Part shown: in pieces, positions 12,727-33,292 of the stretch | How the letters are laid out: each line of letters begins with the position of its first letter | How positions within the stretch are numbered: the stretch's first letter is position 1 | NCBI RefSeq assembly: GCF_022842375.1 | Contig: NZ_JALHPR010000001.1 | Coordinates: 62,001 to 126,000, forward strand | Direction: 5' to 3' | Length of the DNA stretch: 64,000 bases | From: Elioraea sp. | Lineage (GTDB): Bacteria; Pseudomonadota; Alphaproteobacteria; Acetobacterales; Acetobacteraceae | Made by a program: the position numbers and the translations under genes | The notes under the pieces: generated by a model | The model's input: only the letters and a program-made list of their open reading frames with translations | Database searches by the model: none | Told to the model about the DNA's origin: nothing

Positions 12727-12751
12727 CGAACCCGAAGCAGCAACGCCGGTT
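12727..12751 (+). promoter_or_regulatory. EcfG-type promoter, variant -35 (CGAAC-N17-GTT)
   Basis: CGAAC at 12727-12731 and GTT at 12749-12751, spacing 17, 58 bases before the GTG start of the small disordered protein. The -35 differs by one base from GGAAC. Confidence 0.55.
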
Positions 12752-12809
12752 CAACCCTCAATCCCGCTGCCGATCAGAGGCGGGCAAACAGAGGGAAGGA
12801 CAAGGTCTC

Positions 12810-13061
12810 GTGACACAACCGAACCAGAACAATCCGGCCAACCCCGGTGGCCAGCGCCAGCAGCCTGGCGGGCCGAACGACCCGAAGCAGCAGCACGAGC
12901 AGGGCCGTGGGACTGGCGATGCCAGCAAGCAGGGCTCGAAGGGCTATGGTGGCGGGAGCACCGAGGAGAAGCAGCCCGGTGGCAAGGCGCTCGACATCAA
13001 CGGCCCTGGCGGGGGCAAGGGGGAGCAGCGCGACCAGGGTTCTCGTCGCCAGGACCGCTGA
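12810..13061 (+). CDS. Small disordered Gly/Gln-rich hydrophilic protein
   Basis: An 83-residue protein made almost entirely of Gly, Gln, Asn, Pro and charged residues, with no hydrophobic core (for example KQGSKGYGGGSTEEKQPGG). Such composition resembles small hydrophilic stress proteins of the KGG/hydrophilin kind; the function is not known. The GTG start at 12810 is chosen because GGGAAGGA precedes it at normal spacing and the hydrophilic composition begins there. The open frame extends upstream to 12525, through sequence that lies antisense to the neighbouring gene. A variant EcfG-type promoter lies 58 bases upstream, which fits stress induction. Confidence 0.65.
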   Translation: MTQPNQNNPANPGGQRQQPGGPNDPKQQHEQGRGTGDASKQGSKGYGGGSTEEKQPGGKALDINGPGGGKGEQRDQGSRRQDR

Positions 13062-13176
13062 GCTTCCCGCACGCGCCGATGCTGGATCCGTCGGCCGGAA
13101 GGCCGGCGGGTTCCGCGTGCACGGTGGTTCGCCGGCGACTATCGGGCGGCGCGACTTCCCGGGCACTGACGCCCCA

Positions 13177-13260
13177 GGGTTCCCTCCCCGGGATTCACTA
13201 CCGAGGGTTCCCTCCCCAGTGCTCAATCTCACGGGTTCAATCCTCAGGGGTGAAGAAGCA
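13177..13260. repeat. 28-bp degenerate tandem repeat, three units
   Basis: Units start at 13177, 13205 and 13233, each beginning GGGTTC. Units 1 and 2 share GGGTTCCCTCCCC exactly; unit 3 is worn (GGGTTCAATCCTCA). The third unit overlaps the 3' end and stop codon of the PIG-L gene. Confidence 0.7.
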
Positions 13261-13983
13261 CTCGATGGGGCGTGCGACGATCCTGCGCAGTTGCGCCGGG
13301 TGGCTCACCGCATGGCCCTGTTCCTCCATCGTCCCACTTACGTTCCGATAGGCCTCGAGTGCCCAGTGTCGGCGTGCAGCATGGACGCCGACATTGACTG
13401 CGATTCCGGCCCGGGGTGGCGCATGCCCGGCATGCCCGGGCGACCCCGAGACCGCGTAGGCGAGGCGTCGCGGCGGTGAGGCGACGGCACGCGCCGCAGC
13501 CCGTGCAATGTGCGCGGCAGCGCCATGGTCGGGATGCGGATCCGCATCGCTTGGAGCGAGCAGGATGCCGGCGGACCTTTGCCGCAGCATGGCTGCGACG
13601 ACGTCCACGGCGATGCCAAATGCGAACCCGTCGGCCGCAAGCGCGCCCTCCGGCAGGTCGAGGAACGAGACCATCGCGGCGCCCCCCCCGAGCCGCGCGA
13701 TGGCCGTCAATGTCTCGGCGCGACGGAGAACGTCGACCCGCCGGATGTCGCGGAGCGGCATGTCTCGCAGCGCCCTGAGAACGCCCGCGCCGCCCGTCAA
13801 CATCACAATGTGCACCGGCAGTCCACGCTGCGTCGCCTCGGCGATGAGGCCACCGCAGCCGAGGAGCTCATCGATCGGATGCGGTGCGACGATCAGGAAT
13901 GATCCGCCAGTCGCCAGTTCGCCGACATCGACGAGCGGGAACATCGGCTGCCGCGCCTCGCATGCTGCTGCCGTTGCAGTCAC
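13237..13983 (-). CDS. PIG-L/LmbE-family protein with altered HPIDE motif
   Basis: A 248-residue member of the PIG-L/LmbE zinc deacetylase family, which removes N-acetyl groups from GlcNAc-type sugars. The nucleotide-binding-like strand reads FLIVAPHPIDELLGCGG. The second zinc site is DADPHPDHGAAAH. In active members the first motif is (A/P)HPDDE: the His and second Asp bind zinc and the first Asp is the general base. Here that first Asp is Ile, so zinc ligands are kept but the base is missing. The GTG start at 13983 overlaps the stop of the preceding gene (GTGA), so it is probably translated with 13980-14390 from the stress promoter at 14435. It may be inactive, or the base may be supplied elsewhere. 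Confidence 0.8.
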   Translation of the reverse strand: MTATAAACEARQPMFPLVDVGELATGGSFLIVAPHPIDELLGCGGLIAEATQRGLPVHIVMLTGGAGVLRALRDMPLRDIRRVDVLRRAETLTAIARLGGGAAMVSFLDLPEGALAADGFAFGIAVDVVAAMLRQRSAGILLAPSDADPHPDHGAAAHIARAAARAVASPPRRLAYAVSGSPGHAGHAPPRAGIAVNVGVHAARRHWALEAYRNVSGTMEEQGHAVSHPAQLRRIVARPIECFFTPED

Positions 13984-14390
13984 CGAGGCTGGCCGGCGCC
14001 GCCCGACATCAGCCGCAGGCAGAGTGCGCGCAGCCGCTCGACCGAGAACGGCCCAAGCTGCGCCTCGCTGCCCGTGATGGCCGCAGGGCGGCGCGGATTG
14101 TCACGCGGCGGCATCTCGGCCGGCATGGGAGGCTCCTCCGGAGGGCTCTCGCGCGGCGGCAGCTCGGGCGGAACATCCTCGGTCGGAATCGGCCTGTCCT
14201 CTGGACCGCGGACCGGCGGGCTGGGCATGTCGGGCGAAGCACCCGGCCGCTTTGGTGCAATCGGCTCGCCGGTCCGGCGAGTCGGATCCGTCATCGACGG
14301 TGGGTCACTCGCTGGGAAGCTGTCATCGAGCGCGTCATCGAGCCGGTCCTCGCGCAGCTTGGTCCCTGCATCACGGGTCGTGCCATCCAT
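13980..14390 (-). CDS. Small Pro-rich protein with SFPASDPP motif
   Basis: A 136-residue hydrophilic, largely disordered protein. The N-terminal part contains DDALDDSFPASDPPS, a motif common in small alphaproteobacterial proteins of unknown function. The middle is rich in Pro and Glu ([13 protein letters not shown]) and the C terminus forms a possible helix (SVERLRALCLRLM). ATG 14390 is chosen because GGAG sits 8 bases before it; ATG 14396 is too close to that site. An exact EcfG-type promoter ends 44 bases upstream. The gene overlaps the PIG-L gene by 4 bases. Confidence 0.68.
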   Translation of the reverse strand: MDGTTRDAGTKLREDRLDDALDDSFPASDPPSMTDPTRRTGEPIAPKRPGASPDMPSPPVRGPEDRPIPTEDVPPELPPRESPPEEPPMPAEMPPRDNPRRPAAITGSEAQLGPFSVERLRALCLRLMSGGAGQPR

Positions 14391-14434
14391 GCTCATCGCT
14401 CCATGCCTGCTGTGGCGGTGGGGTGTAGGGTCAG

Positions 14435-14459
14435 AACCACGGGTGCGGGCGAAGGTTCC
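14435..14459 (-). promoter_or_regulatory. EcfG-type promoter (GGAAC-N17-GTT)
   Basis: Read on the minus strand, GGAAC is at 14459-14455 and GTT at 14437-14435, spacing 17. It ends 44 bases before ATG 14390 and matches the alphaproteobacterial general-stress sigma consensus exactly. Confidence 0.8.
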
Positions 14460-14560: not shown

Positions 14561-15433
14561 CTAGCGGCGCGCGCCGACTGCAGCGCCACCGACGGCAGCG
14601 CCGAGCCCGAGCAGCATCGTCGCGAAGGCCCAGAACGCAAGCACCGCGCCTGACGTCGCCGCGACATCCGCAGCACGGCGTGCCTGCTCTTCCACGGCCC
14701 GCGCACGGGCCACAATCGCCTGCTCCGCCTGGTCGAGGCGTTGGCGGGCCTCTTCCGGTGCGATGCCCGCCGTCGCAGCGATCAGCTGCTCCATCCGCGC
14801 GCGGTCGTCGGGGTTCCAGGAGCCATCGGCAAGGCGACGGCCGGCCAGGTCGGCCATCTCCGCCATCAGGTCCTCACGCGATGCCGAAGCGGGATCGGAC
14901 GGCGCGGCCAGGCGGCGCTGGAGCCCCGCGGCGATCTCACTCGGATCGACCTGCGACACGACGGCCGCACCGCCCGCTGCCGCGACCGATGTCGCCGCAC
15001 CCGTGATACCGCGGATGGCAGCGACCGTTCCGCCTGAGAGCGCGGTGCCGACCAGCGCAATTGCGATGACGAAGCTGACAGCCCAGACGCCCATCCCGTG
15101 CAGCAGGGCGTCCTTCCTGCTCCATGTCGCTGCAAGCCGCGCCGCGACGATGCCGCCGAGCAGAAGCCCGAGAGCGCTCGACAAGGCCATCCATGAAGCG
15201 GCGGCGATGGTGAACGTGCTGCCGCTCGGGCTGTCGCGGTCGACCGCGTCAACCGACGAGGCACCGATCGCAGCGCCGAGGGCGTGCAGCATTGATCCGA
15301 ATGCGATCGCAACAATCGCGCCAACGAGGATCGCGCCCCAGCTGACGGTGGGGGCAGCACCCTGCATCATGATGGTATCGGGCGGTGCAGGATCGAGGCG
15401 GGCGTCGATGCGCGCCGAGGGCGTAACGTTCAT
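14561..15433 (-). CDS. Integral membrane protein of unknown function
   Basis: A 290-residue protein with several hydrophobic segments: about residues 31-58 (WGAILVGAIVAIAFGSML), 73-98, 110-133 and a C-terminal pair near 262-286. A cytoplasmic or periplasmic helical region of about 100 residues, rich in Ala, Arg and Glu (EEARQRLDQAEQAIVARARA), lies between the third and last segments and is probably a coiled coil. This layout is that of a poorly described alphaproteobacterial membrane family; the function is not known. An exact EcfG-type promoter lies 50 bases upstream of ATG 15433, so stress control is likely. Confidence 0.72.
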   Translation of the reverse strand: MNVTPSARIDARLDPAPPDTIMMQGAAPTVSWGAILVGAIVAIAFGSMLHALGAAIGASSVDAVDRDSPSGSTFTIAAASWMALSSALGLLLGGIVAARLAATWSRKDALLHGMGVWAVSFVIAIALVGTALSGGTVAAIRGITGAATSVAAAGGAAVVSQVDPSEIAAGLQRRLAAPSDPASASREDLMAEMADLAGRRLADGSWNPDDRARMEQLIAATAGIAPEEARQRLDQAEQAIVARARAVEEQARRAADVAATSGAVLAFWAFATMLLGLGAAVGGAAVGARR

Positions 15434-15483: not shown

Positions 15484-15508
15484 AACCGTCCGCGCGCCGG
15501 GAAGTTCC
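15484..15508 (-). promoter_or_regulatory. EcfG-type promoter (GGAAC-N17-GTT)
   Basis: On the minus strand, GGAAC is at 15508-15504 and GTT at 15486-15484, spacing 17, 50 bases before the membrane-protein ATG. Confidence 0.8.
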
Positions 15509-15530
15509 CTCCCCGACGTGGGTCAAGCGC

Positions 15531-15686
15531 TCAGGCAAACAGCCATGACAGCGCGAAACCGATGACGACGAGGACGAGCGAGACGGCAAGCACGTAGCGC
15601 ACGATGCCGGGTGTGATGCCCTGTCGCACCTGGACCGCGGGCGCTCCATCCTTCCTCATCGGTCCATTCTGCGGCGGCTCGGTCAT
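15531..15686 (-). CDS. Small single-span membrane protein (51 residues)
   Basis: A 51-residue protein: a hydrophilic N-terminal half (MTEPPQNGPMRKDG) then one membrane segment (YVLAVSLVLVVIGFALSWLF) at the very C terminus. ATG 15686 has GGAGAA five bases before it. It lies 135 bases after the sigma factor gene in the same direction and may be cotranscribed with it. The function is unknown; tail-anchored small proteins of this kind are common in stress regulons. Confidence 0.6.
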   Translation of the reverse strand: MTEPPQNGPMRKDGAPAVQVRQGITPGIVRYVLAVSLVLVVIGFALSWLFA

Positions 15687-15712: not shown

Positions 15713-15737
15713 GGAACGCGCGGTGACTGCGGCGGTT
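15713..15737 (+). promoter_or_regulatory. Orphan EcfG-type promoter match facing the sigma gene
   Basis: GGAAC at 15713-15717 and GTT at 15735-15737, spacing 17, on the plus strand. No plus-strand gene follows, so transcription from it would run antisense into the sigma factor gene. It could be a chance match. Confidence 0.35.
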
Positions 15738-15821
15738 GCACGAATCCTCATGCCGCGTGCGGTGCATCGCTCAGGCAGTGTCATGAGCGGACGTCGACGC
15801 GCGCCGGGGCAGGCGATGCCG

Positions 15822-16409
15822 TCACACCGCCCGCCCGTCGGTGGCCTCACCCTCGCGTGGCGCGCGGCCCCCACGCTGCGCGGGTGGAGATGCCGCGGGC
15901 TGCTGCCGCTGCGGCAGGGAGTTGGGCGAATAGGCTTGCCGCAACAGCGCCTCGAGTGCGGCGCGCGCCCGATGCACACGGCTCTTCACGGTCCCGACGG
16001 CGCAGCCGGAAATCGCCGCGATCTCGTCGTACGACATGTTCGCCCCACCCGCGAGCGCAAGCACGGAGCGGAACTCGGGCGGGAGCCGCATGAACTGTCG
16101 CACCAGGTCCTTGAGCTCAAGCCCGTCCATCTGGTCGGGAAACACGGAGGCGAAACCGTCGTCGAGTTCATGCAGCGGGCGCGTCCGCCGCCGCTTGGCG
16201 ACGAATTCGTTGAGGAACCGATTTCGCAGTACCCTGAAGGCCCACGCCTTGAAGTTCGTGCCTTGCTCAAAACGATCGGCAGCCGCGAGAAGGCGGACGG
16301 CGGTATCCTGCACGAGGTCGTCTGCATCCGCCCGGTTGCCCGTGAGGAACAATGCGTAGGCCCGCATGTTTGGCAGGAGGGCGACCAGGTCCCGATCTAT
16401 CGACGGCAT
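15822..16409 (-). CDS. ecfG: ECF sigma factor, EcfG-like (general stress response)
   Basis: A 195-residue extracytoplasmic-function sigma factor. Region 2 reads LPNMRAYALFLTGNRADADDLVQDTAVRLL with the core-binding and -10-contacting segment, then GTNFKAWAFRVLRNRFLNEF. Region 4 is LPPEFRSVLALAGGANMSYDEIAAISGCAVGTVKSRVHRAR, the helix-turn-helix that reads the -35. These motifs are closest to the EcfG (ECF15) group, which in alphaproteobacteria drives the general stress regulon and is held by NepR and freed by PhyR. Neither NepR nor PhyR is visible in the window. The C-terminal 35 residues are an extra Gln/Pro/Arg-rich tail. EcfG-type promoter matches cluster around the gene, but none precedes it in the correct orientation. 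The symbol is given on similarity, not proof. Confidence 0.82.
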   Translation of the reverse strand: MPSIDRDLVALLPNMRAYALFLTGNRADADDLVQDTAVRLLAAADRFEQGTNFKAWAFRVLRNRFLNEFVAKRRRTRPLHELDDGFASVFPDQMDGLELKDLVRQFMRLPPEFRSVLALAGGANMSYDEIAAISGCAVGTVKSRVHRARAALEALLRQAYSPNSLPQRQQPAASPPAQRGGRAPREGEATDGRAV

Positions 16410-16562
16410 GGCGAGGCTCTCACTGGTTCCACGTGAGGGTCAACGACGCATGCCGCGCGAGGGTTGCGGCTCACCGGTGCACGCCGGGGAGGAATCACCC
16501 GCATCCGGGTGGTCATCACACCATGCTGACGCCCTGGTTGAGTGGCACGCTGCGTTTTCCTG

Positions 16563-16587
16563 CGAACCTTGCCGCACCTCGCCCGTT
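16563..16587 (+). promoter_or_regulatory. EcfG-type promoter, variant -35 (CGAAC-N17-GTT)
   Basis: CGAAC at 16563-16567 and GTT at 16585-16587, spacing 17, ending 45 bases before the lipoprotein ATG at 16633. Confidence 0.55.
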
Positions 16588-16632: not shown

Positions 16633-16923
16633 ATGCGAAGGATCGCTTCCACGCTCGCCGTGTGCGCAGCCGTCACGCTCGGCGCGTGCGGCACGCAGCA
16701 GGATGAACGCGTTCAGGGTGGCGCTGCCGCCGGTGCGGCCGCGGGCGCGGGTGTCGGCGCACTCGGCGGGCCGGTGGGCGCCGTCGTCGGCGGTGTCGTT
16801 GGCGGTGCCGCCGGCGCCGTGACGGGCGCGACGACCGACCCGAGCGACGTCAATCTCGGCCGTCCGGTATGGGCAGAGCCCGACACGCGCCTCAACCCGC
16901 CTGACAATGATCCGCGTCGCTGA
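16633..16923 (+). CDS. Glycine-zipper lipoprotein with NLGRPVW motif
   Basis: A 96-residue lipoprotein with a signal peptide and lipobox (VTLGAC, Cys about residue 19), then a long Gly/Ala/Val zipper. The sequence DVNLGRPVWAEP follows and a polar tail ends the protein. It is a sibling of the lipoproteins at 5602-5841 and 43169-43411 but carries about 17 extra residues after the shared motif. ATG 16633 has GGGAGA six bases before it. It is divergent from the sigma factor gene and has a variant EcfG-type promoter 45 bases upstream, so it is probably stress-induced. A strong terminator follows. Confidence 0.8.
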   Translation: MRRIASTLAVCAAVTLGACGTQQDERVQGGAAAGAAAGAGVGALGGPVGAVVGGVVGGAAGAVTGATTDPSDVNLGRPVWAEPDTRLNPPDNDPRR

Positions 16924-17006: not shown

Positions 17007-17597
17007 TCAGCGCCGGCGGGCGGTGTAGTCAAATTTCGGGGCGTTGCGGAGTTGCTCCTCCGTCAGCGTCGTCTCGACCCGTGTTTCGTCGTCGGACACG
17101 CGGCGCATCCGCAGCGCTGCTGGCTCGACTGCGACATAGCTCTGCGCAATGCCGACCAGCCCGCCGAACGAGAGGATGATGCCGATGACTTCGCCGCGAT
17201 CGGAGATGATCACGTCCGCGACATCGGCGATCTTGTCCTCGCCGCCCGTGGTGTAGACGTCAGCACCGTCGAGCCTGCTGGCGAGGTAGTGGGATGCGCC
17301 GGCCTGTCGCACGAACCCGGTCGTCGAACCCGCACCGCCCATCGGGGGCTGGGCTGCCTGCCGCTCGGGGATCGCGCCCATTCCCGGCTGCCCGGGCTGT
17401 GCGCGGCCAGGCATCGAGCCAGGAACGGAACCAGGCGGAACAGGGCGATCGGTGCCTGGCTGGGCGGTTCCGCTCATCCCCGGTGATGGTGTCGGGGCTG
17501 GTGCCTGCGCCGGTGCCTGGGCGGTTGCAAAGCCGGCGGCCATCATGATCGTCGCTGCAACGATACTCGTGCTGAGAAGGCGGTTCCGTGTCGGCAT
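17007..17597 (-). CDS. Exported PRC-barrel protein
   Basis: A 196-residue protein with a signal peptide (SIVAATIMMAAGFATAQA), then a Pro/Ala/Gly-rich linker of about 65 residues. A PRC-barrel-like domain follows: ASHYLASRLDGADVYTTGG, then DKIADVADVIISDRGEVIGI. The linker and export suggest a periplasmic location. PRC-barrel domains are small beta-barrels found in photosystem H subunits and RimM; their role in stress-induced periplasmic proteins is not settled. ATG 17597 has GGGAGA six bases upstream (alternative ATG 17615). An exact EcfG-type promoter ends 35 bases upstream. Confidence 0.78.
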   Translation of the reverse strand: MPTRNRLLSTSIVAATIMMAAGFATAQAPAQAPAPTPSPGMSGTAQPGTDRPVPPGSVPGSMPGRAQPGQPGMGAIPERQAAQPPMGGAGSTTGFVRQAGASHYLASRLDGADVYTTGGEDKIADVADVIISDRGEVIGIILSFGGLVGIAQSYVAVEPAALRMRRVSDDETRVETTLTEEQLRNAPKFDYTARRR

Positions 17598-17632: not shown

Positions 17633-17657
17633 AACCAGTGTGGTGTCGGTAGGTTCC
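17633..17657 (-). promoter_or_regulatory. EcfG-type promoter (GGAAC-N17-GTT)
   Basis: On the minus strand, GGAAC is at 17657-17653 and GTT at 17635-17633, spacing 17, 35 bases before the PRC-barrel ATG. Confidence 0.8.
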
Positions 17658-17844: not shown

Positions 17845-18336
17845 TCACGCCGCGGCCTGCGCCTCGGCGATGACGGAACGGCTGGCGAGATCCTCAAGCA
17901 GCTTATCCGCTGCCTTCTCCTCGGTAAGGGTCTCGCGCAGCAGCTTGACGATGTCGGGCTGGTTCATCCCCTCGGCCCACGCGATGAGGGTGAGGTAGCG
18001 CGCCATCTCGTAGTGTTCCACCGCCTGGCCACACGCGATCAGTCCCGCATCGCGGACGGGGCTTGGCTGCGTGGCCTCCTCGAGCAGTTCCTCGCATTCC
18101 TGGATCAGGCCCTGGATTGCTTCGCAGGTCTGGCCCTGCGCCCTCTTGCCGAGCGTTTCGAACACGCGCTGCAGGCGCTCGACCTGGCCCTGGGTCTGTT
18201 CCTTGTGCTCGGTGAAAGCCTGCTTGAGCTTGGGATTCTGCGCAGCCCGCGCCATCTTGGGCAACGCCTTCAGCAGCTGACGCTCGGCGTAGTAGATGTC
18301 TTTGAGCGTCATCATGAAGAGTTCACTGAACTGCAT
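17845..18336 (-). CDS. YciE/YciF-type ferritin-like protein (DUF892)
   Basis: A 163-residue helical protein of the DUF892 (YciE/YciF) family, ferritin-like four-helix bundles found in many stress regulons. It starts with FSELFMMTLKDIYYAERQLLKALPKMA and has the AVEHYEMARYLTLIAWAE helix with the Glu/His pair that lines the metal site in the fold. Metal binding and protection from oxidative or osmotic stress are inferred from the family. An exact EcfG-type promoter ends 45 bases before ATG 18336. About 190 bases after its stop lies the next promoter region; no clear terminator was seen. Confidence 0.9.
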   Translation of the reverse strand: MQFSELFMMTLKDIYYAERQLLKALPKMARAAQNPKLKQAFTEHKEQTQGQVERLQRVFETLGKRAQGQTCEAIQGLIQECEELLEEATQPSPVRDAGLIACGQAVEHYEMARYLTLIAWAEGMNQPDIVKLLRETLTEEKAADKLLEDLASRSVIAEAQAAA

Positions 18337-18381: not shown

Positions 18382-18406
18382 AACCGCCTCGGCGCGGACG
18401 GGTTCC
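18382..18406 (-). promoter_or_regulatory. EcfG-type promoter (GGAAC-N17-GTT)
   Basis: On the minus strand, GGAAC is at 18406-18402 and GTT at 18384-18382, spacing 17, between the end of opgH and the YciE-like gene. Confidence 0.8.
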
Positions 18407-18422: not shown

Positions 18423-20633
18423 TCATTGCGCCGCCACCGCGTCGGCTGACCGATCGTCTCGCCTGGCTTTCGTTCCATCGGCGAGCGCGACGAGTGCCGC
18501 CACCGATCCAGCATCGCCGAGCAGCGCCAGTTTCTCCTCGCGATCGAGGATGGCGAGCGCATCGGTGAGCGCGTCCACCGCAGCGACCTTCGTCCGCCCA
18601 GTCGCCCGCTTGAGATCCTGACGCGCATGGCCTGCACGTCGCGCAGCCGGCAGAAGTGCGAGATGCAGTGCGAGCAGCGTTCTGTCGGCGGCAAGTCGGA
18701 TGATGCCGTCGGCATCCGGCGCATCGAGGCTGCGCAGCCGGGCGCGGCAAGTGGCCGCGCGCTGCAGCACGCGTGGCGGCGATGCTTCCTCCGGAATGAC
18801 AAGCAGCCCCGCCCGCGCCAGTGCCTGCCCGACCCTTGCGCTGCCGGTGACGACGACGAGCGGGATGGCGAGCAGGAGGCCGAGGATCACCGGTGACATC
18901 CAGAGCGCGAGCGACGGCGCAATGAGGATGACGAAGCAAAGTGCCACGCCGAGCAATGTGTGCCACGCATAGAGCCGGATGGCGTCGCGCCAGGCGACAT
19001 GCCTGCGGTCACGGCATTGTGCCGACCACCCGGCATCACGGCCCGCGAGGATGCTCGCCACGTGGCGCGCGTGCGTGAGCATCGAGACGGGGGCAATCAA
19101 CCCGGAAACGATGATCTCGATCACGGTTCCGGCAAGCACGGTGCCAGCCCCGCCCGCGCGGCGGCTTTCGCTCGTGTTCCGCAGGAACGCTGCGGCAGCG
19201 AGCAGCTTCGGCACGATCAGCATCATCATGGTCGCGACGAACATCCACTTCGCACGCACGGGGTCGACGACGGGCCAGTGCGGGAACAGGGCATGGCCTG
19301 TCGGAAAATAGACATGCCCCGCGAGATGGGCCTTTAGTGAAAGGACGATTCCGCCGATCAGGAAGGCGAGCCACAGCGGCGCCGTGAGATACGCGCCGAT
19401 GCCGGTCAGAAGGTGAAGCCGGCTGATGGGGTGGAGCCCCGCCGCCGGCAGGATCGCCGCATGCTGGAGGTTGCCCTGGCACCACCGGCGATCGCGGATC
19501 GCACTGTCGATCATGTTGGGCGGCCCCTGCTCGTGGCTGCCGCTGAGCAATGGGATCGTGTGCACCGCCCAGCCCGCGCGGCGGAGCAATGCTGCCTCGA
19601 TGAAGTCGTGGCTAAGGATCTGCCCACCGAATGGCTTGGCGCCAGGGAGGTGCGGAAGGCCGGCAGACGCGGCGAAGGCGGCGGTGCGGATGATGGCGTT
19701 GTGACCGTAGTAGTTGCCCTCCGCGCCCTGCCACCAGGCATTGCCCGCGGCAATGAGGGCGCCATGGATGCGGCCAGCGAATTGCTGCATCCGGGCGAGC
19801 AGCGTCTCGCCGTCGACACTGATGGGCAGGGTCTGGATCATTCCGACATCGGGATGTCGTTCCATCGCTCCTGCAAGGCGCACCAGCGTACGGCCCTCCA
19901 TCACGCTGTCGGCATCCAGCACGACGAAATGCGCATAGGCGCCGCCGAACCGCGTGATCCACTCAGCGATGTTGCCGACCTTCCGCTCCGCATTATCGTG
20001 GCGCCTGCGATAGTGGATCGGTGGGCCGCCGGCGATGCGGTGGCGGATCGCCAGGAACTGTGCTTCCTCCGCGATCCACGCATCTGGGTCCGTCGTGTCG
20101 CTCAGCACGAAGATGTCGAAGCTCGCAGCCGCACCCGCCTCGACCAGCGAGCCATGCATCGCCTCGATCGCGCCGAACACCGCGGCGGCCTGTTCGTTGT
20201 GGATGGGCATCAGCAGTGCCGTGCGCGTCGTGAGTGCAAGCCTGCCACCGGCCTCGAGCAGATGATGGGTACGGCCGCGCAGCAACACGGCAAAGCCGAT
20301 GATGGCGTTGATGAAGGCAAGCCCGATCCACGCGAAGAGCATGGCAAAGAGCATGAGCAGGATGATCGCCGGCATGCCAGGGCCAGGACCGTCCAGCACT
20401 TTCGACATCTCGATGGTTGCACCGATGCCGAGCATCGTGGCCCCGCCGAGGACGAGGAGCCTGCGCCACGCAATGCCGGGGGGCGAGGATGGCAACCGCG
20501 CTGGCGCGCGGGGTTCCGCACGGCCAAGCGACTGAACAGGCATCGCCATCGGGCATCCAAGTGGCATCGCAGGGAGCACCCGATCGCCGCCGCGGCGGCG
20601 AGCGCGGCCCGCGAACTCGCTTATGCCGACCAT
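18423..20633 (-). CDS. opgH: Glucans biosynthesis glucosyltransferase OpgH
   Basis: OpgH (MdoH) is the inner-membrane glucosyltransferase that builds and exports the backbone of osmoregulated periplasmic glucans. N-terminal membrane segments lie near residues 55-75 and 88-118. The GT2 catalytic domain has LLMPIHNE, FDIFVLSDTTDPD, VVLDADSVMEGRTL (DxD) and the RRWCQGNLQH (QxxRW-type) motif. C-terminal membrane segments follow. Length (736 residues) is normal. ATG 20633 overlaps the opgG end by 13 bases; a TTG at 20645 is the alternative. It forms an operon with opgG, in the usual order. Confidence 0.93.
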   Translation of the reverse strand: MVGISEFAGRARRRGGDRVLPAMPLGCPMAMPVQSLGRAEPRAPARLPSSPPGIAWRRLLVLGGATMLGIGATIEMSKVLDGPGPGMPAIILLMLFAMLFAWIGLAFINAIIGFAVLLRGRTHHLLEAGGRLALTTRTALLMPIHNEQAAAVFGAIEAMHGSLVEAGAAASFDIFVLSDTTDPDAWIAEEAQFLAIRHRIAGGPPIHYRRRHDNAERKVGNIAEWITRFGGAYAHFVVLDADSVMEGRTLVRLAGAMERHPDVGMIQTLPISVDGETLLARMQQFAGRIHGALIAAGNAWWQGAEGNYYGHNAIIRTAAFAASAGLPHLPGAKPFGGQILSHDFIEAALLRRAGWAVHTIPLLSGSHEQGPPNMIDSAIRDRRWCQGNLQHAAILPAAGLHPISRLHLLTGIGAYLTAPLWLAFLIGGIVLSLKAHLAGHVYFPTGHALFPHWPVVDPVRAKWMFVATMMMLIVPKLLAAAAFLRNTSESRRAGGAGTVLAGTVIEIIVSGLIAPVSMLTHARHVASILAGRDAGWSAQCRDRRHVAWRDAIRLYAWHTLLGVALCFVILIAPSLALWMSPVILGLLLAIPLVVVTGSARVGQALARAGLLVIPEEASPPRVLQRAATCRARLRSLDAPDADGIIRLAADRTLLALHLALLPAARRAGHARQDLKRATGRTKVAAVDALTDALAILDREEKLALLGDAGSVAALVALADGTKARRDDRSADAVAAQ

Positions 20634-22795: not shown

Positions 22796-22820
22796 AACCG
22801 ACCTGGCGGGCCCAGGTTCC
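22796..22820 (-). promoter_or_regulatory. EcfG-type promoter (GGAAC-N17-GTT)
   Basis: On the minus strand, GGAAC is at 22820-22816 and GTT at 22798-22796, spacing 17, 32 bases before the PRC-barrel ATG. Confidence 0.8.
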
Positions 22821-22960: not shown

Positions 22961-24841
22961 GTGAGCCGCCGCACTTCCGTCAATCGCCGTCGCGCGATCA
23001 TCCTGCTCATCATCGCCGCAGTTCCGCTCGCGATTGTGGCGGCGACACTGATTCTGCTGCCTGGGATCGAGCTCGGCCCTGCCGTCGCGCGCCGGCTCGA
23101 GGCGCAGTTGGGGCGGACGGTGACGATCACGAGCCTGCGGCTGATTCCGCGGCGCAGTATTCGCATCGAGCTCCGCGACGTCCGGGTTGCCAATATCGAC
23201 GGCGGCACCGCACCGGCGATGGCAACGCTTGGTAGGCTCAGCGCCGAGCTTGATGTGCTGCCGCTGCTGCGGGGCAGGGTCGTGGTGCGCAGCATCGACG
23301 TGGCGGGATTCTCCCTGCTGCTCGAGCGGGCGGCGGATCGCCGCGCGAACTGGAGATTCGGCACGCGCGGGAGCCCGACTGAGACCGAAGCTGATGCGCG
23401 CGCCTCCGTGCCGACCATCCTCGACCTCCGCCTTTCCGACAGCGAGGTCACGTTCCGGACGACGAGTGGCACCATGCTGCGCACCGTCATCGCCACGGCG
23501 CGGGGCACTGCGGCGGATGCGTCCCAGCCGATCACGCTGGGCGCCGACGGCAGCTACAACGATGTCCCGATCGCGCTGCGTGCGACGCTCGGCAGCTTCG
23601 ACGCGCTGCGCGATGCCGGAGTTGCGTTTCCTGTCGCGTTAGAGGCCGTTTCCGGCGACACGACGCTTACCTTCCGTGGCACGTCGCGCCATCCGCTCGA
23701 CGCTGATGGCCTCGACGGTGCGCTCGCCCTGAACGCCCCCACGGTCGCCACGCTGCTGGCGATCGGCGGCGTCGACCAGTCACCGCCGGTCAGCCTGACG
23801 CTGTCGGGCCACGCGACACGACAGGACACTCTGTGGCGCCTCACCGACATCGAGGGGGAGCTGGACGGCGCGCCCTTCACCGGCGCATCGCTCGCGCTGA
23901 CGGAGGGCGCTTCGGGCGAGCCCGAATCGATCGCCGCAACCCTCGCGTTCACCCGGCTCGATTTCGACAAGCTGCTCGCCTCCCCTGGCGGCGAGGGGGC
24001 CGACGATGGGCCTGACATGCCGCTGCGGGTCGCTCTCGCACCAGATCCTCTGGTGACGGCCGATATCTCGGCCGAGGCCTTCACCTACGGCCGCCTCCAG
24101 GCGCGGGATGCCCGCCTCAAGGGGGAAATCGCCCCCTCGCGGATCACCCTTCAGGAACTGTCGCTCTTCGGTTTCGGCGCGCAGCTCAGCGGGCGGGTCG
24201 ACATCACGCCGGCCGGCGATGGAGCGCGGCTTGTCGCGGAGGCGGAGCTGCGCGAGAGCGACCTCGACGCACTCCGCCGCAGCGTCGGATTTGGCCCGCT
24301 GCCCGTGACCGGGCGCGTCCATGGCCGGCTCGCGATGGAGGCGGAGGGAACCGCGTTGAACGAGGCGCTGCGCGGTGCTGACGGGACGCTCGTGCTGGGC
24401 ATGTCCAGCGGCAGGATCGCGCGCGAGGTGATCGAGATGGCCTCGACCGATGTCAGGGCGCTGTTCCGGACCGCGGAGGGCACGACCCAGGTCACGTGCA
24501 TGCTGGCGGTCGTGGTGCTGCGCGATGGGGCAGGGGACGTGGCACCGCTTCACCTTCGCGCCGGAACGGGGGCGGTCAGTGGCATCGCGACATTCGATCT
24601 CAACCGCCGATGGCTCGACCTGGTGATCGGGAGCAGGCGCGAGACGACGCACACGCTCGCCCTCGACATTCCCGTCCGCGTCAGCGGCCGCTTCGCCGAC
24701 CTCTCGTTCGAGCCGGCGGCTGCCGGGCCGGAAGAGCGGGCGCAGCAGACGGGAGCCCGCCACGTCGCGGCCCTGCCGCCGTCGCTCCGCGACACCGCGA
24801 CCGGGAATGCCTGCTATCGCTCGGCCATGGGGCGCCGCTGA
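22961..24841 (+). CDS. AsmA-family protein
   Basis: A 626-residue AsmA-like protein. A basic N terminus and one membrane span (about residues 12-34) anchor a large periplasmic part. The AsmA N-terminal block VARRLEAQLGRTVTITSLRLIPRRSIRIELRDVRV is followed by repeated beta-rich segments. The C-terminal AsmA_2-type block contains GFGAQLSGRVDITPAG and RVHGRLAMEAEG. AsmA-type proteins are bridge-like proteins implicated in moving phospholipids across the envelope; this role is inferred. The GTG start at 22961 follows AAAGGA, with spacing a little long. It is divergent from the PRC-barrel gene. Confidence 0.85.
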   Translation: MSRRTSVNRRRAIILLIIAAVPLAIVAATLILLPGIELGPAVARRLEAQLGRTVTITSLRLIPRRSIRIELRDVRVANIDGGTAPAMATLGRLSAELDVLPLLRGRVVVRSIDVAGFSLLLERAADRRANWRFGTRGSPTETEADARASVPTILDLRLSDSEVTFRTTSGTMLRTVIATARGTAADASQPITLGADGSYNDVPIALRATLGSFDALRDAGVAFPVALEAVSGDTTLTFRGTSRHPLDADGLDGALALNAPTVATLLAIGGVDQSPPVSLTLSGHATRQDTLWRLTDIEGELDGAPFTGASLALTEGASGEPESIAATLAFTRLDFDKLLASPGGEGADDGPDMPLRVALAPDPLVTADISAEAFTYGRLQARDARLKGEIAPSRITLQELSLFGFGAQLSGRVDITPAGDGARLVAEAELRESDLDALRRSVGFGPLPVTGRVHGRLAMEAEGTALNEALRGADGTLVLGMSSGRIAREVIEMASTDVRALFRTAEGTTQVTCMLAVVVLRDGAGDVAPLHLRAGTGAVSGIATFDLNRRWLDLVIGSRRETTHTLALDIPVRVSGRFADLSFEPAAAGPEERAQQTGARHVAALPPSLRDTATGNACYRSAMGRR

Positions 24842-25211: not shown

Positions 25212-27611
25212 ATGACCATGGCCGCGCGAACGCGGCTTAACCGCGCGTCACGGTCGCGCGTCACCTTTCCCGGTTTCACCACGCTGCTGCCGATCCTCGC
25301 CATCGCGGTTCCGGCGTTCGTTCTCCTGCTCGCGGCGAAGCAGAGCTGGGACGGTGTCGTGGAGGATGCCACCGTCGAGCTGTCGCGCCTCGCCGATGCC
25401 GGAGCGGAAACGGCCGAGCGCGCGCTCGGCGGCTATTCGGTGACGGCGGCGCGGATCAATGACCGGCTGCTCGATCTCGCCGCGGAGGCGCCGCCCGATT
25501 TCAGGCGCTCCGCGCATGAGCTGCTGGCCGAGCTCGTGTCGGAACTCAACCCACCGGTGATCGCGTTCGCGATCGACGGCCAGGGGCGGCCGCTTGCCGC
25601 GAGCCATCTGTTCCCGGTTCCCGCAGACCATGACCTCAGCGACCGCGACTTCTTCCAGGCGCTCAGGCGTGATGATGCGCCGGCCGTCCACGTCAGCCGG
25701 ATGTTCACGGGGCGGTTCGATGGTCAGCTTCTGGTCGCCGTCAGCCGCGCGCGGCGAAGCCGTGGCGAAACCGCCGGGCGGGGCAGGTTCGAGGGCCTCA
25801 CCACCATCTCATTCGATCCCAACGGGATGGGCGCAAGCCTGCGCCGGCTCCTTCCCAGCGCAGCCGACAGCCTGGCGCTTGTGCATGATGACGGCGCCCC
25901 GATCGCGAGCACGATGGTGCATGCGTTGCCGCTCTCGCCCCCACAGCACGACGGGGCGTTCGATGCCCTCCTGCGCAGCGGGGCAAGGTCGGGCCACTAC
26001 CGCACAGGCAAGGGCGCCGGCGGCCCTGATCGCCTCGTTGCCGTACGCAGCCTCCAGGTGTTCCCGCTCCACGCCGTGGCAACGCGCCCGCTGGAATCGA
26101 TGCGGGCGCGATGGCGTGCGGTATTCCTGCCGTATCTCGGGTTCGGGCTTCCGGCGATCGCGGCACTTTTGACGCTCAGCCTCCGTGTCCGCGCTGACCA
26201 GGTGCGGCTCGTCGCGGCCAATGCGACCCTCGCACGCGATGTCGCGCGGTCGGAGGATCGGCTGGAGCGGGCGAAGCGCTACGCGCTTGTCGGCACGTTC
26301 GAGGTCGATCTCACCAATGGCAGCAGCGTGCGGTCGCCTGAGTACATGGCTGTGCATGGTCTGGCACCGCAGGATGCCCGCGAGACCCATGCCGACTGGT
26401 TACGCCGCCTGCACCCCGATGACCGGACGACCGCCGAGGCGCACCTGTTGCGGACCATCACCGACCACAATCCCTCGACCGACTATGCACAGACCTATCG
26501 GACAGTCACGCCGTCCGGCGACGTTCGCTGGATCTCGGCGCGCGGCGAGATCGAGCGTGACGCTGCGGGCCGCGCGGTGACGTTGCGCGGCATCCATGTC
26601 GATGTCACCTCGCTGCGCTCCACCGAGGTCGCACTCGCGGGAACGAACGCCCGGCTTCTCCTCGCGCAGGATGCCGTGGGCATCGGCGCGTGGGACTGGT
26701 CGCCCGCGACAGGAACGTTCTATCTCGCGCCAAGAACGCACCAACTGCTCGGGCTCGCCCCCTCCCAGGTGGTGAGAAGCTGGCGCTGCGTCGTACGGAG
26801 GATCCTGCCGGAGGACCGCGCGTTGCTGTGGCAGGGCCTGCGGGATGCCGCCGCGACGCAGTCCATGCGCGTGGAGCTGCGGATCATGACCCCTTCCGCC
26901 GATGGGGCGCCGGCACGGCAGCCCTGGGTCATGATCAGGGCGCGCGCGGTCGATCTCGGCGATGGCAGTGGCATGCGGCTGATTGGTGTTGCCTACGACA
27001 TCACCGAGCGCAAGGAGGCCGAGGCGCGTGCAACCCTTCTGGCCCACGAGGTCGAGCACCGCGCACGCAATGCCATGACGCTCGTCAGTGGCCTTGTGAG
27101 GATGACGACCGCCGGAAGCCATGACGAGTTCGTCGAGATACTCGAGGGACGAATCAAGTCACTCGCTCGGGCGATCACCCTGCTCGGCCGGTCGCGATGG
27201 TCGGGTGCTGCGATCGATGACCTCGCGCGGGAGGAGCTCGCGCCGTTCCTGACGAGCCCCGGGGTATCGCGTGACATTCGGATCGAGGGTCCGCGGGCGA
27301 TGGTCGACGCCGACACGGCGCAGCAGCTCTCGATGGCGCTGCACGAGCTCACCACCAACAGCGTGAAGTACGGTGCCCTCTCCGTGCCACAGGGGACGAT
27401 TTCCATCACCTGGGCGATCCACCGGCAGAGGGTGACGCTGACGTGGAAGGAGCGCGGCGGGCCCATCGTGCGCGTACCCCCGACGCGGGAGGGCTTCGGC
27501 ACGTTGCTCGTTCGCTCGACCTTCGAGCAACAGCTTGGCGGCAGCGTTGCGATGGAGTGGGAGGAGGACGGGCTCCGGTGCAGCGTGACGTTTCCGCTAC
27601 GCCCGCCGTGA
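25212..27611 (+). CDS. HWE-family sensor histidine kinase with PAS domains
   Basis: A 799-residue membrane sensor kinase. Membrane segment 1 lies at about residues 24-44. An extracellular Cache-type sensor of about 260 residues follows, then a second span (YLGFGLPAIAALLTLSL). Two PAS/PAC units come next (YALVGTFEVDLTNGS and AVGIGAWDWSP, each closing with an ITERKE-like end). The phosphoacceptor is EVEHRARNAMTLVSGLVRM, typical of the HWE group. The ATP-binding N box is HELTTNSVKYGALS, with GFGTLLVRSTFEQQLGG after it. HWE kinases often feed PhyR in the general stress pathway, which fits the surrounding regulon but is inference. ATG 25212 has AGGA seven bases before it; a TTG at 25134 is the alternative. 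Confidence 0.9.
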   Translation: MTMAARTRLNRASRSRVTFPGFTTLLPILAIAVPAFVLLLAAKQSWDGVVEDATVELSRLADAGAETAERALGGYSVTAARINDRLLDLAAEAPPDFRRSAHELLAELVSELNPPVIAFAIDGQGRPLAASHLFPVPADHDLSDRDFFQALRRDDAPAVHVSRMFTGRFDGQLLVAVSRARRSRGETAGRGRFEGLTTISFDPNGMGASLRRLLPSAADSLALVHDDGAPIASTMVHALPLSPPQHDGAFDALLRSGARSGHYRTGKGAGGPDRLVAVRSLQVFPLHAVATRPLESMRARWRAVFLPYLGFGLPAIAALLTLSLRVRADQVRLVAANATLARDVARSEDRLERAKRYALVGTFEVDLTNGSSVRSPEYMAVHGLAPQDARETHADWLRRLHPDDRTTAEAHLLRTITDHNPSTDYAQTYRTVTPSGDVRWISARGEIERDAAGRAVTLRGIHVDVTSLRSTEVALAGTNARLLLAQDAVGIGAWDWSPATGTFYLAPRTHQLLGLAPSQVVRSWRCVVRRILPEDRALLWQGLRDAAATQSMRVELRIMTPSADGAPARQPWVMIRARAVDLGDGSGMRLIGVAYDITERKEAEARATLLAHEVEHRARNAMTLVSGLVRMTTAGSHDEFVEILEGRIKSLARAITLLGRSRWSGAAIDDLAREELAPFLTSPGVSRDIRIEGPRAMVDADTAQQLSMALHELTTNSVKYGALSVPQGTISITWAIHRQRVTLTWKERGGPIVRVPPTREGFGTLLVRSTFEQQLGGSVAMEWEEDGLRCSVTFPLRPP

Positions 27612-27704: not shown

Positions 27705-28673
27705 CTATTCCGCGTAGCCTCCAACCACGGGCAGGATCTCGCCCGTGATGTAGCTCGACATCTGCGCGGAGGCGAGGAACACGTAGGCCGGGGCCAGTTC
27801 CTCGGGCTGTGCGGGCCGCCGCATCGGGGTCTTCGCACCGAAATGGCGTGCCTTGTCCGCGTCATCGCTCGGGTTGAGGGGGGTCCAGACAGGGCCAGGC
27901 GCGACCGCGTTCACGCGGATGCCCCGCACGAGCAGATCGCCCGAGAGGGCCCGCGTGAAGGCATGAATGCCCCCCTTCGTCATCGAGTAGTCGATGATGG
28001 CCGCGCTGCCGTCGATGCCGGTGACGGAGCCTGTGTTCACGATCGTGGCACCGGGCCGCATGTGCCGGAGGCAGGCCTGCGTCATGTGGAAGTACCCATA
28101 GAGATTGGTGCGCACCGTGAGGTCGAAGTGCTCCTCCGTCAGGTCTTCGAAACGACTCGCATGCAGCTGGAACGCCGCGTTGTTGACGAGGATGTCGATC
28201 CCGCCCCACTCCTCCGCAACCCTGTCGGCAGCATCGAAGCAGGAGCGGCGATCGGTGACGTCACCGGCGATGGCGATGCAGCGCTGGCCCTCGTCGAGGA
28301 CCGCGGCGCGCGTCACGTCCGCATCCGGATGCTCAGCCTCGAGGTGAAGGATCGCGACGTCGGCCCCCTCGCGTGCGAACAGCACCGCGACGGCCCGCCC
28401 GATGCCTGAATCGCCGCCGGTGATGATCGCTCTCTTGCCGGCGAGCTTGCCCGATCCCTTGTAGTACGGCGCATCGTACATCGGGGCGAGCAGCTGCTCG
28501 CCTTCGAGGCCGGGCTTGTCCAGCTCCTGCCTCGGGAATGGCGGCGCTGGATACTCGCGCGCGCCTGCCTGCATCGCCGACCTCATTCTTTCCCTGGGCC
28601 TGGCCTCGTCGACCCGTCGCACGTTGTCCTGCGCGTCCTGTTGCAGGCTGACGGCGTCTGGCGTGTCGTTCAT
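27705..28673 (-). CDS. SDR-family oxidoreductase, YghA-like
   Basis: A 322-residue short-chain dehydrogenase with an N-terminal extension of about 70 residues. Cofactor binding is shown by RAIITGGDSGIGRAVA (TGxxxGxG) and NNAAF; catalysis by the Ser of NTGSVTG and YSMTKGG (YxxxK). The extension (PPFPRQELDKPGLEGEQLLAPMYDAP) and the ASAQMSSYITGEILPVVGGY end mark the YghA / general-stress-protein-39 subgroup. The substrate is unknown. ATG 28673 has GGAGGG at 8 bases. An exact EcfG-type promoter lies 166 bases upstream, a longer leader than for the others. It is divergent from ku. Confidence 0.9.
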   Translation of the reverse strand: MNDTPDAVSLQQDAQDNVRRVDEARPRERMRSAMQAGAREYPAPPFPRQELDKPGLEGEQLLAPMYDAPYYKGSGKLAGKRAIITGGDSGIGRAVAVLFAREGADVAILHLEAEHPDADVTRAAVLDEGQRCIAIAGDVTDRRSCFDAADRVAEEWGGIDILVNNAAFQLHASRFEDLTEEHFDLTVRTNLYGYFHMTQACLRHMRPGATIVNTGSVTGIDGSAAIIDYSMTKGGIHAFTRALSGDLLVRGIRVNAVAPGPVWTPLNPSDDADKARHFGAKTPMRRPAQPEELAPAYVFLASAQMSSYITGEILPVVGGYAE

Positions 28674-28839
28674 CGGAAGGACCCTCCAACAAGCGTGGTG
28701 CGACAGCGCGACGCCGCATTGCAAGGACACGCCGGACGACCCATCCGTCGCTCGGATCGCGGGCGTATAGCCAACGCACGCAGCGCGCCGGGCGGAGATG
28801 GCCATCAGCGGACCCTGTCGGCACAGCGACCGGCGGCTC

Positions 28840-28864
28840 AACCCATGACGCGGGGGAAGGTTCC
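28840..28864 (-). promoter_or_regulatory. EcfG-type promoter (GGAAC-N17-GTT)
   Basis: On the minus strand, GGAAC is at 28864-28860 and GTT at 28842-28840, spacing 17. It faces the SDR gene; the leader would be about 160 bases. It lies 50 bases upstream of ku, which reads the other way. Confidence 0.7.
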
Positions 28865-28913
28865 CACTGTAGCCGGCTGCGCAACCAGGCGGTGCAGGTC
28901 GCGTTGCACCGGC

Positions 28914-32211: not shown

Positions 32212-32239
32212 ATGGCGCAGAAGCAGCGAGGCATCGGCG

Positions 32240-32767
32240 ATGGGGCATGATCATGGCCCGACACCTGGCTTCCCGTCACCGCAGCTGTCGGAGGCGCGCG
32301 GGATGGTCGATGACCGTCCGAGGTCGCAGCAGATCATGTGGCGGGTTCAGCGGATTGGCTGGGGGGTCCTCGCCGCCATCCTCGCCGCTGCGTGCGGCGG
32401 CCTGTTCGGCGGTGGCGGCCCGCTCGCGGAACGAACGCTGCACGAGGGCGAGCGAGGCTTCGCCATCACCCATGACCGTGTCGTGCGGCAGTCGCGGCCG
32501 ACGGTCTGGTCCATCGCGCTTCCTGCGGACACCAGCACGCTCGTGCTCCGCGATCCTGCCACCGAACTCTTCGAGCTGCTGCGGATCGTGCCGCGGCCGG
32601 TGGTCGAGCGCTGGGTCAATGGTGCCGTGGTGATGGAGTTCCAGCGCGCTGATGCCGCGCCCATGCGGGTGCAGCTCGTCCTTGCGCCGGCGACGCCCGG
32701 CAGGCACGCGGTGGAGGTCGGCACCGGCGCGTGGATGACGACGTTCAGCGTCATCACTCTTCCCTGA
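32240..32767 (+). CDS. Membrane-anchored protein of unknown function
   Basis: A 175-residue protein. After a polar start of about 38 residues there is one hydrophobic segment (IGWGVLAAILAAACGGLFGGGG). A C-terminal beta-rich domain of about 110 residues follows (TVWSIALPADTSTLVLRDPA, VVERWVNGAVVMEFQRAD). The Cys in LAAACGG could be a lipid-attachment site but the spacing is poor. I cannot name a family. It starts 28 bases after ligD and its stop lies 11 bases before the DUF421 gene, so it is probably in that operon and may partner with the DUF421 protein. Confidence 0.65.
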   Translation: MGHDHGPTPGFPSPQLSEARGMVDDRPRSQQIMWRVQRIGWGVLAAILAAACGGLFGGGGPLAERTLHEGERGFAITHDRVVRQSRPTVWSIALPADTSTLVLRDPATELFELLRIVPRPVVERWVNGAVVMEFQRADAAPMRVQLVLAPATPGRHAVEVGTGAWMTTFSVITLP

Positions 32768-32778
32768 GGAGAGCCGGA

Positions 32779-33240
32779 ATGGACACAGTGCTGCGCGCCG
32801 CATCCGTCTACATCATCCTGCTTCTCCTGTTCCGGTTGACGGGCCGGAGGTCGCTCCACCAGATCACGACGTTCGACCTCGTGCTCCTGCTCGTCATCGG
32901 CGAGGTAACGCAGCCAGCACTGGTCGGAGACGACATGTCCGTCACGACAGCGATCATCGCGATCGTCACGCTGCTGATGCTCGATATCGCGTTCTCGTTC
33001 ATCAAGCGCGACGTCGCGTCCGCCGACCGCGTCCTCGACGGCCAGCCGACTCTGCTCGTCCTGCACGGCGCGCCGCTCGAGCGGGAGATGCGCATGGCGC
33101 GCGTCGACATCGCCGACGTGATGCAGGCAGCGCGCGAACGGCGGGGGATCGTGCGCATCGAGGATATAGGCATGGCAGTGCTCGAGGTCGGCGGGGCGAT
33201 CTCGATCATCCCCCGCGCGCAGTTCGATCGTGCAGGGTAG
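32779..33240 (+). CDS. DUF421/YetF-like membrane protein
   Basis: A 153-residue protein of the DUF421 (YetF/YcaP) family. Two or three membrane helices come first (AASVYIILLLLFRLTGRR, FDLVLLLVIGEV, VTTAIIAIVTLLMLDIAFSF). A small cytoplasmic domain follows (QPTLLVLHGAPLEREMRMARV) with the family's ISIIPR close. The FRLTGRRSLHQITTFDLVLLLVIGEV block is diagnostic. The function is unknown; homologues are linked to envelope stress and sporulation in other bacteria. ATG 32779 has GAGGAG at normal spacing. The protein is shorter than YetF (about 200-230), lacking the second soluble repeat. Confidence 0.88.
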   Translation: MDTVLRAASVYIILLLLFRLTGRRSLHQITTFDLVLLLVIGEVTQPALVGDDMSVTTAIIAIVTLLMLDIAFSFIKRDVASADRVLDGQPTLLVLHGAPLEREMRMARVDIADVMQAARERRGIVRIEDIGMAVLEVGGAISIIPRAQFDRAG

Positions 33241-33267
33241 CGCTGCGCTCCGCCCGGCGGGCGCCGC

Positions 33268-33292
33268 AGAACCTTCCGGCTCCTGATCGGTT
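33268..33292 (+). promoter_or_regulatory. EcfG-type promoter, variant -35 (AGAAC-N17-GTT)
   Basis: AGAAC at 33268-33272 and GTT at 33290-33292, spacing 17, 70 bases before the Mn-catalase ATG. Confidence 0.55.

Follow-up and report, generated by a model that had tools for sequence, protein, structure and literature searches.

A candidate local stress sub-regulon with its own promoter spelling around a non-canonical EcfG-like sigma gene of Elioraea

Many alphaproteobacteria carry extra EcfG genes of unsettled purpose, which raises the question of whether such a spare sigma factor may serve promoters of its own. A 64-kb stretch of the genome of Elioraea sp. (Acetobacteraceae; NZ_JALHPR010000001.1, positions 62,001 to 126,000; hereafter the window, on a contig referred to as C1) offers a concrete candidate pattern. 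Here, an EcfG-like extracytoplasmic function (ECF) sigma gene (15822..16409, minus strand) lies within a block of sites that mostly read GGAACC..GGTT rather than ending in CGTT, and the genes behind these sites are its candidate targets. Given that the spare sigma gene is surrounded by a distinct promoter spelling, the paralogue possibly governs a limited stress programme by itself, and from the block come about ten candidate targets and a two-base prediction.

The initial annotation described this block as a stress regulon built from repeated EcfG-type promoters, and the sites on which it relied are all present. Six exact minus-strand matches to GGAAC-N17-GTT (14435, 15484, 17633, 18382, 22796 and 28840) and three plus-strand sites with one mismatch each in the -35 box (12727, 16563 and 33268) have 17-base spacing and stand upstream of a gene read in the same direction. 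The -35 box takes the form GGAACC in five of the six exact sites; GGTT closes all six, and it also closes the variants at 12727 and 33268. The distance from GTT to the gene start, given earlier as mostly 32–70 bases, lies in that range for eight sites (38, 50, 35, 45 and 32 bases for the first five exact sites in the order above; 58, 45 and 70 bases for the variants), while for 28840 it is 34 or 166 bases depending on the start chosen. Exact matches number 10 in the window against 0.66 expected, in line with the earlier estimate of about one by chance, and none of 100 shuffles reached 10, which bears out the claim that the clustering is not random. Four of these matches were not listed before: 15713 (plus strand) is intergenic, with no called same-strand gene within 300 bases, and overlaps a minus-strand GCAACC..CGTT site at 15715; 16346 (plus strand) is antisense within the sigma gene; and 52791 and 55546 (minus strand) fall inside opposite-strand genes. 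Sites added to the list here are a GGAACC-N14-GGTT site before an OpgH-like gene and GCAACC..CGTT sites at 15715 (minus strand), 22861 and 28881 (plus strand) and 16442-16467 (minus strand). With the first two bases left free, NNAAC-N17-GTT in promoter position gave 17 matches, mirror matches included, in 449 kb of sequence (all of C1 and 77 kb of contig C6): 12 in the window (11 in the block and one at 41.8 kb), 5 at the canonical stress locus on C6, and none elsewhere in the 449 kb. The layout of the sites, the stress-type genes behind them and the EcfG-like sigma gene among them support the earlier reading, and judged by sequence statistics the promoters and the regulon are very probably real.

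The sigma factor itself (195 aa) has the sigma-2 and sigma-4 regions only, as is typical of the ECF architecture (Pfam Sigma70_r2 at residues 11-74, Sigma70_r4_2 at 102-152), and matches PhyR_sigma2 at 42 bits against a cut-off of 27. Its best match among solved structures is 5uxx (E-value 2.6e-31), which we take to be Bartonella EcfG. A tree with 41 rows, of which four are duplicates, groups it with a paralogue from a second genome of the same genus, G001 (support 0.92), and this pair is sister (0.85) to the family's canonical EcfG clade (0.997). The gene is therefore best described as a non-canonical EcfG-like paralogue: a canonical EcfG gene would be expected beside nepR and phyR, and this one is on C1 with that locus on C6. 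No close orthologue was found, the best identity being 49.6% in 894 plasmid records, 46–51% in 40 relatives, and 46% in 26 genome loci among the matches listed. Among the 25 NCBIfam families shown for either sigma factor, none was both EcfG-specific and above its cut-off.

NepR has a single match in the genome, on C6, where sequence and Pfam matches give a histidine kinase, NepR, EcfG and a second ECF sigma (ecf2) on one strand and PhyR and CsbD on the other. The sites before genes around this canonical locus read GCAACC-N15-CGTT; the textbook spelling GGAAC..CGTT, which had been expected to be shared, was not what we found. By comparison, a Rhizobiales metagenome-assembled genome has a nepR-ecfG-phyR-DUF1328-CsbD-like locus (L039:9600-12000; names from reading of the sequence) with textbook GGAACC..CGTT sites. 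No clear site was seen directly upstream of the genome's own nepR, ecfG or phyR. One GCAACC-N15-CGTT site (C6:153350-153374, plus strand; L037, around 8351) lies in the ecfG-ecf2 gap and is aimed across ecf2, antisense to it, at phyR, for which it may act as a remote promoter that gives a long leader. The counterpart of ecf2 at the canonical locus of G001 (C12:269414-269890) is apparently interrupted by a stop, and it is uninterrupted in several relatives.

Across the genome of the window (G000), GCAACC-N15-CGTT occurs 29 times against 4 for the reversed control (later figures with vs are likewise compared with a control); six of these sites are at the canonical locus, three in the window and 20 elsewhere. 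They precede Dps-, DJ-1-, fasciclin-, CsbD-, DUF883-, PRC-, OmpA- and HPF-like genes, among others, most of these names coming from reading of the sequence. The looser GCAAC-N15/16-CGTT shows no excess (79 vs 75), and the excess emerges with GCAACC and 17-base spacing. The other spelling, GGAACC-N14/15-GGTT, occurs 22 times against 3 in the control, with six of the 22 inside the window. To follow the second base of the -35 box and the first base of the -10 box together, we collected every GSAACC-N15-SGTT site in the genome, 61 in number (the control gives 12), and applied a strict rule for promoter position, namely a site not wholly within a called gene, with a start 20–100 bases downstream, an open frame and a ribosome-site-like stretch. 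This rule was satisfied by 5 of 14 GGAACC..GGTT and 13 of 29 GCAACC..CGTT sites, and by 1 of 10 GGAACC..CGTT and 1 of 8 GCAACC..GGTT sites, i.e., 18 of 43 matched against 2 of 18 mixed spellings (Fisher p = 0.034), and the two bases are themselves associated (Fisher p = 0.0022). The rule misses the 14435 site, because its short gene scores low, and three sites 8–15 bases before a called gene (L090, L132, L182). With the base before GTT left free, promoter-position sites in the 449 kb ended in CGTT in 6 of 6 cases for GCAAC-N17 and in GGTT in 3 of 3 cases for GGAAC-N17. The genome hence has two promoter spellings, GGAACC-N15-GGTT at most sites of the block and GCAACC-N15-CGTT at the canonical locus and before dispersed stress-type genes.

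The site before the paralogue gene itself belongs to the second of these. A GCAACC-N16-CGTT site (16442..16467, minus strand) with 18-base spacing lies 32 bp before the sigma ATG and scores 18.9 with a matrix of the canonical sites, against a best of 14.1 in 194 random 220-bp stretches of the window outside the block. The same 18-base spacing is found before genes read from sequence as DUF1328-like and TspO-like, and in the 449 kb these and the sigma gene have the only three promoter-position GCAAC sites with this spacing. This suggests that canonical EcfG may transcribe the paralogue gene. In the model that we propose, canonical EcfG, under NepR/PhyR control on the other contig, would read GCAACC-N15/16-CGTT, including the site before 15822-16409, and the paralogue would then direct RNA polymerase to its own spelling, GGAACC-N15-GGTT, before some seven to ten transcription units within about 20 kb around it, which would make the block a local sub-regulon within the general stress response of alphaproteobacteria. 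Of the models considered, this one, with a paralogue that is subordinate to canonical EcfG and has a spelling to itself, is the best, and we assign it a probability of about 0.5; the pairing of each sigma factor with a spelling, the cascade and any induction by stress are the parts of it that we infer. A more specific version, in which the two paralogues have split the promoter code at the second -35 base and the first -10 base to give an insulated, self-clustered sub-regulon under the main regulon, and in which canonical EcfG here and in several genomes of the family has shifted from textbook GGAAC to GCAACC, is proposed tentatively and as a whole.

EcfG paralogues and cascades among them are already known, and what differs here is the distinct spelling beside the paralogue. 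Transcription of a paralogue gene by canonical EcfG is described for Caulobacter (SigT/SigU) and Sphingomonas (ecfG1/ecfG2) in PMC4814048, and the site before the window sigma gene implies the same order; EcfG2 of Sphingomonas melonis and SigU are reported there not to bind NepR. The nearest parallel for separate targets is Rhizobium etli, where canonical EcfG1 and non-canonical EcfG2 have both separate and shared targets and each sigma factor prefers its own promoter, and where a motif search for the separate EcfG2 targets found none, as far as the accessible portion of PMC3892343 goes; a review likewise calls the EcfG2 pattern yet to be determined (PMC8103513, in part). Unlike EcfG2, which is plasmid-borne (same part of PMC8103513) and has no target motif found (PMC3892343), the paralogue described here lies inside a cluster of putative targets with a distinct motif. 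Methylobacterium extorquens has several paralogues, EcfG1-6, which are inferred in the available sections of PMC4814048 to recognize similar promoters, whereas here the -10 forms segregate with the -35 box. In Sphingopyxis granuli, the -35 box is most often GGAAC or GCAAC and there is a hierarchy between EcfG1 and EcfG2; the passage of PMC7083833 concerned reports no correlation that would set apart the genes responding more strongly to one paralogue or the other.

The 24 genomes of the family that we compared, own genome included, help to delimit both spellings. GCAACC-N15-CGTT is in excess in G001 (22 vs 2), G013 (19 vs 0) and G018 (18 vs 7), and is not in G002, which has no EcfG-like match (2 vs 1). 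With a pass mark of at least 10 sites and at least twice the control, seven genomes pass (G000, G001, G005, G007, G013, G018 and G023) and 17 do not (e.g., G008 with 12 vs 23 and G020 with 16 vs 24), so that GCAACC is not the spelling of the whole family; GGAACC..CGTT passes the same mark in one genome of the 24, G005 (16 vs 5). In G001, 16 of the 19 GCAACC..CGTT sites read (22 in all) lie 8–149 bases before a called gene, with Dps-, CsbD-, DUF883-, PRC-, fasciclin- and OmpA-like genes among the targets. This suggests that the main stress -35 box in several genera of the family is GCAACC and not GGAAC, in which case scans with the textbook motif would miss it; literature searches on EcfG with GCAAC, Acetobacteraceae or Roseomonas turned up no GCAACC box for the family in titles and the beginnings of abstracts. 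GGAACC..GGTT with 17-base spacing behaves differently, with no clear excess in the three GCAACC-rich genomes G001 (3 vs 4), G013 (4 vs 10) and G018 (7 vs 4), and with counts of 4 vs 1 in G023 and 19 vs 5 in G005. Sites of this form lie 5–160 bases before a called gene in 1 of 3 cases in G001 (that one inside a gene), 0 of 4 in G013, 0 of 7 in G018, 3 of 4 in G023 and 5 of 19 in G005. A GGAACC..CGTT preference of the G001 paralogue was also considered (9 vs 1) and dropped, only 2 of the 9 sites having a called gene behind them, at 62 and 107 bases.

Several of these results weigh against a separate programme of the paralogue. The strongest come from relatives: G005 and G023 have GGAACC..GGTT sites before genes, including a short-chain dehydrogenase (SDR) gene in G005 and a topoisomerase IB gene, by reading of the sequence, in G023, with no close relative of the paralogue detected, so that this form is not confined to paralogue-bearing genomes; and G001 has a sigma factor of the same clade (46% identical) with no GGAACC..GGTT excess. 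No canonical-spelling site stands just before the G001 paralogue gene either, and conservation of the cascade in that genome was accordingly rejected. In G013 and G009, which have the two closest relatives of the DUF892 gene of the block, neither spelling is convincingly represented before that relative. Within the genome of the window, few sites pass the strict rule, the window cluster itself supplies four of the five GGAACC..GGTT positives, the counts rest on our own gene caller, and the variant site at position 16563 has the hybrid form CGAACC..CGTT.

Much of this can be accommodated if canonical EcfG alone reads both GCAACC..CGTT and GGAACC..GGTT with a loose motif and the paralogue at most amplifies, so that the block would be a dense part of the ordinary general stress regulon. 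We regard this as a serious rival with a substantial, if minority, share of the probability. Published systems speak for it: in S. melonis, GGAAC and GCAAC sites both occur among the genes that depend on ecfG, and the strain has a single EcfG paralogue according to the available text of PMC6599016, although the corresponding text of PMC4814048 names an ecfG2 in it. The latter also gives, in that portion, an M. extorquens consensus (GAAC-N16,17-C/GGTT) that covers both -10 forms and describes SigU as an amplifier with no separate regulon, unlike the local regulon with a separate spelling proposed for the window. A loose sigma factor should nevertheless also use GGAACC..CGTT, which is in promoter position in one of its ten occurrences, and would not by itself place 6 of 22 GGAACC..GGTT sites beside the paralogue while GCAACC..CGTT sites are spread as described above. 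Recognition of GGAACC..GGTT by ecf2, the second ECF sigma beside ecfG on C6, seems improbable: this genome and most of the relatives' loci that were read do have the gene, but it is not encoded in the block, and G013 and G018 have an uninterrupted ecf2 with the GGAACC..GGTT counts of 4 vs 10 and 7 vs 4 noted above. The commonest form in the window is also close to an inverted repeat (GAACC/GGTTC) and has mirror matches on the other strand, and GGAACC-N15-GGTTC could be the operator of a dimeric regulator with no -35/-10 pair. This we consider more improbable still, since the repeat is only partly symmetrical (7 of 10 window sites have the first G of GGAACC, and 1 of 10 has the matching C at the second position after GTT) and the companion GCAACC..CGTT sites have the same spacing and position and are not palindromic. 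Finally, chance has in its favour that GGAAC-N16/17-GTT alone is common in this GC-rich genome (272 vs 147) and that the 10 plus-strand matches read on C1 outside the window are all inside genes. It is already excluded for the block by the shuffles and by the restriction of promoter-position sites in the 449 kb to the window and the canonical locus.

The sigma factors differ in the -35 helix as well: canonical EcfG proteins of the family have RVFRAR and the paralogue has KSRVHRAR, while the form KSRVNRAR belongs to an EcfG from Rhizobiales with GGAACC..CGTT sites at its own locus. The link between helix and spelling is weak, however, because many genomes with RVFRAR have no GCAACC excess and G020, whose EcfG-like sigma has KSRVHRAR, has no excess of either form. 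We thus do not propose that a single residue sets the -35 base, all the more as E. coli sigma-E presumably has F at the same helix position and reads GGAAC.

The candidate targets include several proteins with no known role, as the initial annotation had noted. Leftmost in the block, the variant site CGAACC-N15-GGTT (12727..12751, plus strand) lies 58 bp before an 83-aa Gly/Gln-rich protein (12810..13061, plus strand; open reading frame and codon score, no Pfam or NCBIfam match), which we assume to resemble KGG stress proteins. The GGAACC-N15-GGTT site at 14435..14459 (minus strand) precedes a small protein of about 138 aa with an SFPASDPP stretch (13980..14396, minus strand), of which 48-aa and 136-aa versions gave no Pfam or NCBIfam match. 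In G001, the paralogue lies about 8 kb from a similar SFPASDPP gene and from a PRC gene like that of the window, and the G001 SFPASDPP protein (L218:18742-19083) has a GCAACC..CGTT site 29 bp upstream, where the window gene has the other spelling; a promoter switch is possible. Next come a GGAACT-N15-GGTT site (15484..15508, minus strand) 50 bp before the gene of an apparently hydrophobic 290-aa protein with no Pfam or NCBIfam match (14561..15433, minus strand), and a GCAACC-N15-CGTT site (15715..15739, minus strand) 28 bp before the gene next after the sigma gene, encoding a 51-aa protein with one hydrophobic stretch and no NCBIfam match (15531..15686, minus strand). A look-alike of the latter in G001, recognized by eye (L290), likewise has a GCAACC..CGTT site.

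On the other side of the sigma gene, the hybrid site CGAACC-N15-CGTT (16563..16587, plus strand) lies 45 bp before a glycine-zipper lipoprotein-like gene (16633..16923, plus strand; 96 aa; Pfam Gly-zipper_Omp at 24.8 bits, just under the cut-off of 25). Three GGAACC-N15-GGTT sites on the minus strand follow: 17633..17657, 35 bp before a PRC-barrel protein with an apparent signal peptide (17007..17597, minus strand; Pfam PRC 5e-07 for a shorter version of the protein); 18382..18406, 45 bp before a DUF892 protein (17845..18336, minus strand; Pfam 6.7e-57); and 22796..22820, 32 bp before a second PRC-barrel protein (22266..22763, minus strand; Pfam 5.3e-13). Between the last two, the GGAACC-N14-GGTT site with 16-base spacing (20494..20517, minus strand) lies 58 bp before an OpgH/MdoH-like glycosyltransferase gene (18423..20435, minus strand; Pfam Glyco_trans_2_3), whose name is taken from the neighbouring MdoG (20621-22021; Pfam 9.8e-182). 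A GCAACC-N15-CGTT site (22861..22885, plus strand) stands 75 bp before an AsmA-family gene (22961..24841, plus strand; Pfam). Further on, the GGAACC-N15-GGTT site at 28840..28864 (minus strand) precedes an SDR gene (27705..28805, minus strand; Pfam adh_short_C2; start at 28805, or at 28673 by codon score), and a GCAACC-N15-CGTT match at 28881..28905 (plus strand) ends 8 bp short of Ku (28914-29816), a distance that is probably too small for a promoter unless the mRNA is leaderless, and is not counted as a promoter position. The variant AGAACC-N15-GGTT (33268..33292, plus strand) lies 70 bp before a manganese catalase gene (33363..34286, plus strand; Pfam 9.9e-63). PRC-barrel proteins and Ku are among the EcfG-dependent genes of S. 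melonis in the available text of PMC6599016. Alongside Ku, the block encodes LigD (Pfam) and a PAS/HWE histidine kinase (25212..27611, plus strand; Pfam HWE_HK 3e-17), which is possibly a stress sensor and has no clear site of either spelling upstream of its gene.

DUF892 relatives occur in 14 genomes besides the window's own; the survey comprised 22 loci, own genome included, of which 20 gave rows (L260 and L266 gave none), some repeating one gene. Outside the own genome, four (in G005, G017, G023 and G035) have GCAAC-type sites above 14 with the canonical matrix, the G035 site with a GGTT end and the other three with CGTT, and no GGAACC..GGTT was found among these. The GGAACC..GGTT sites of G005 and G023 that were read in detail precede phosphoribosyltransferase-like, SDR and topoisomerase IB-like genes (L252, L275 and L238).

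A foreign-origin island was rejected as a description of the block, whose GC content is like that of the rest of the window, and structured RNA in the window is limited to one tRNA-Leu. Flanking the block, 10408-12576 (minus strand) encodes a predicted 722-aa protein with no Pfam match, and 34360-36627 (plus strand) a UDP-galactopyranose mutase domain fused behind an N-terminal part that is glycosyltransferase-like by a weak match below the cut-off. Elsewhere in the genome, an ECF sigma on contig C5 (L038:6508-7794) has the genome's top PhyR_sigma2 score, 60 bits, and is followed by a 251-aa gene that may encode its anti-sigma factor.

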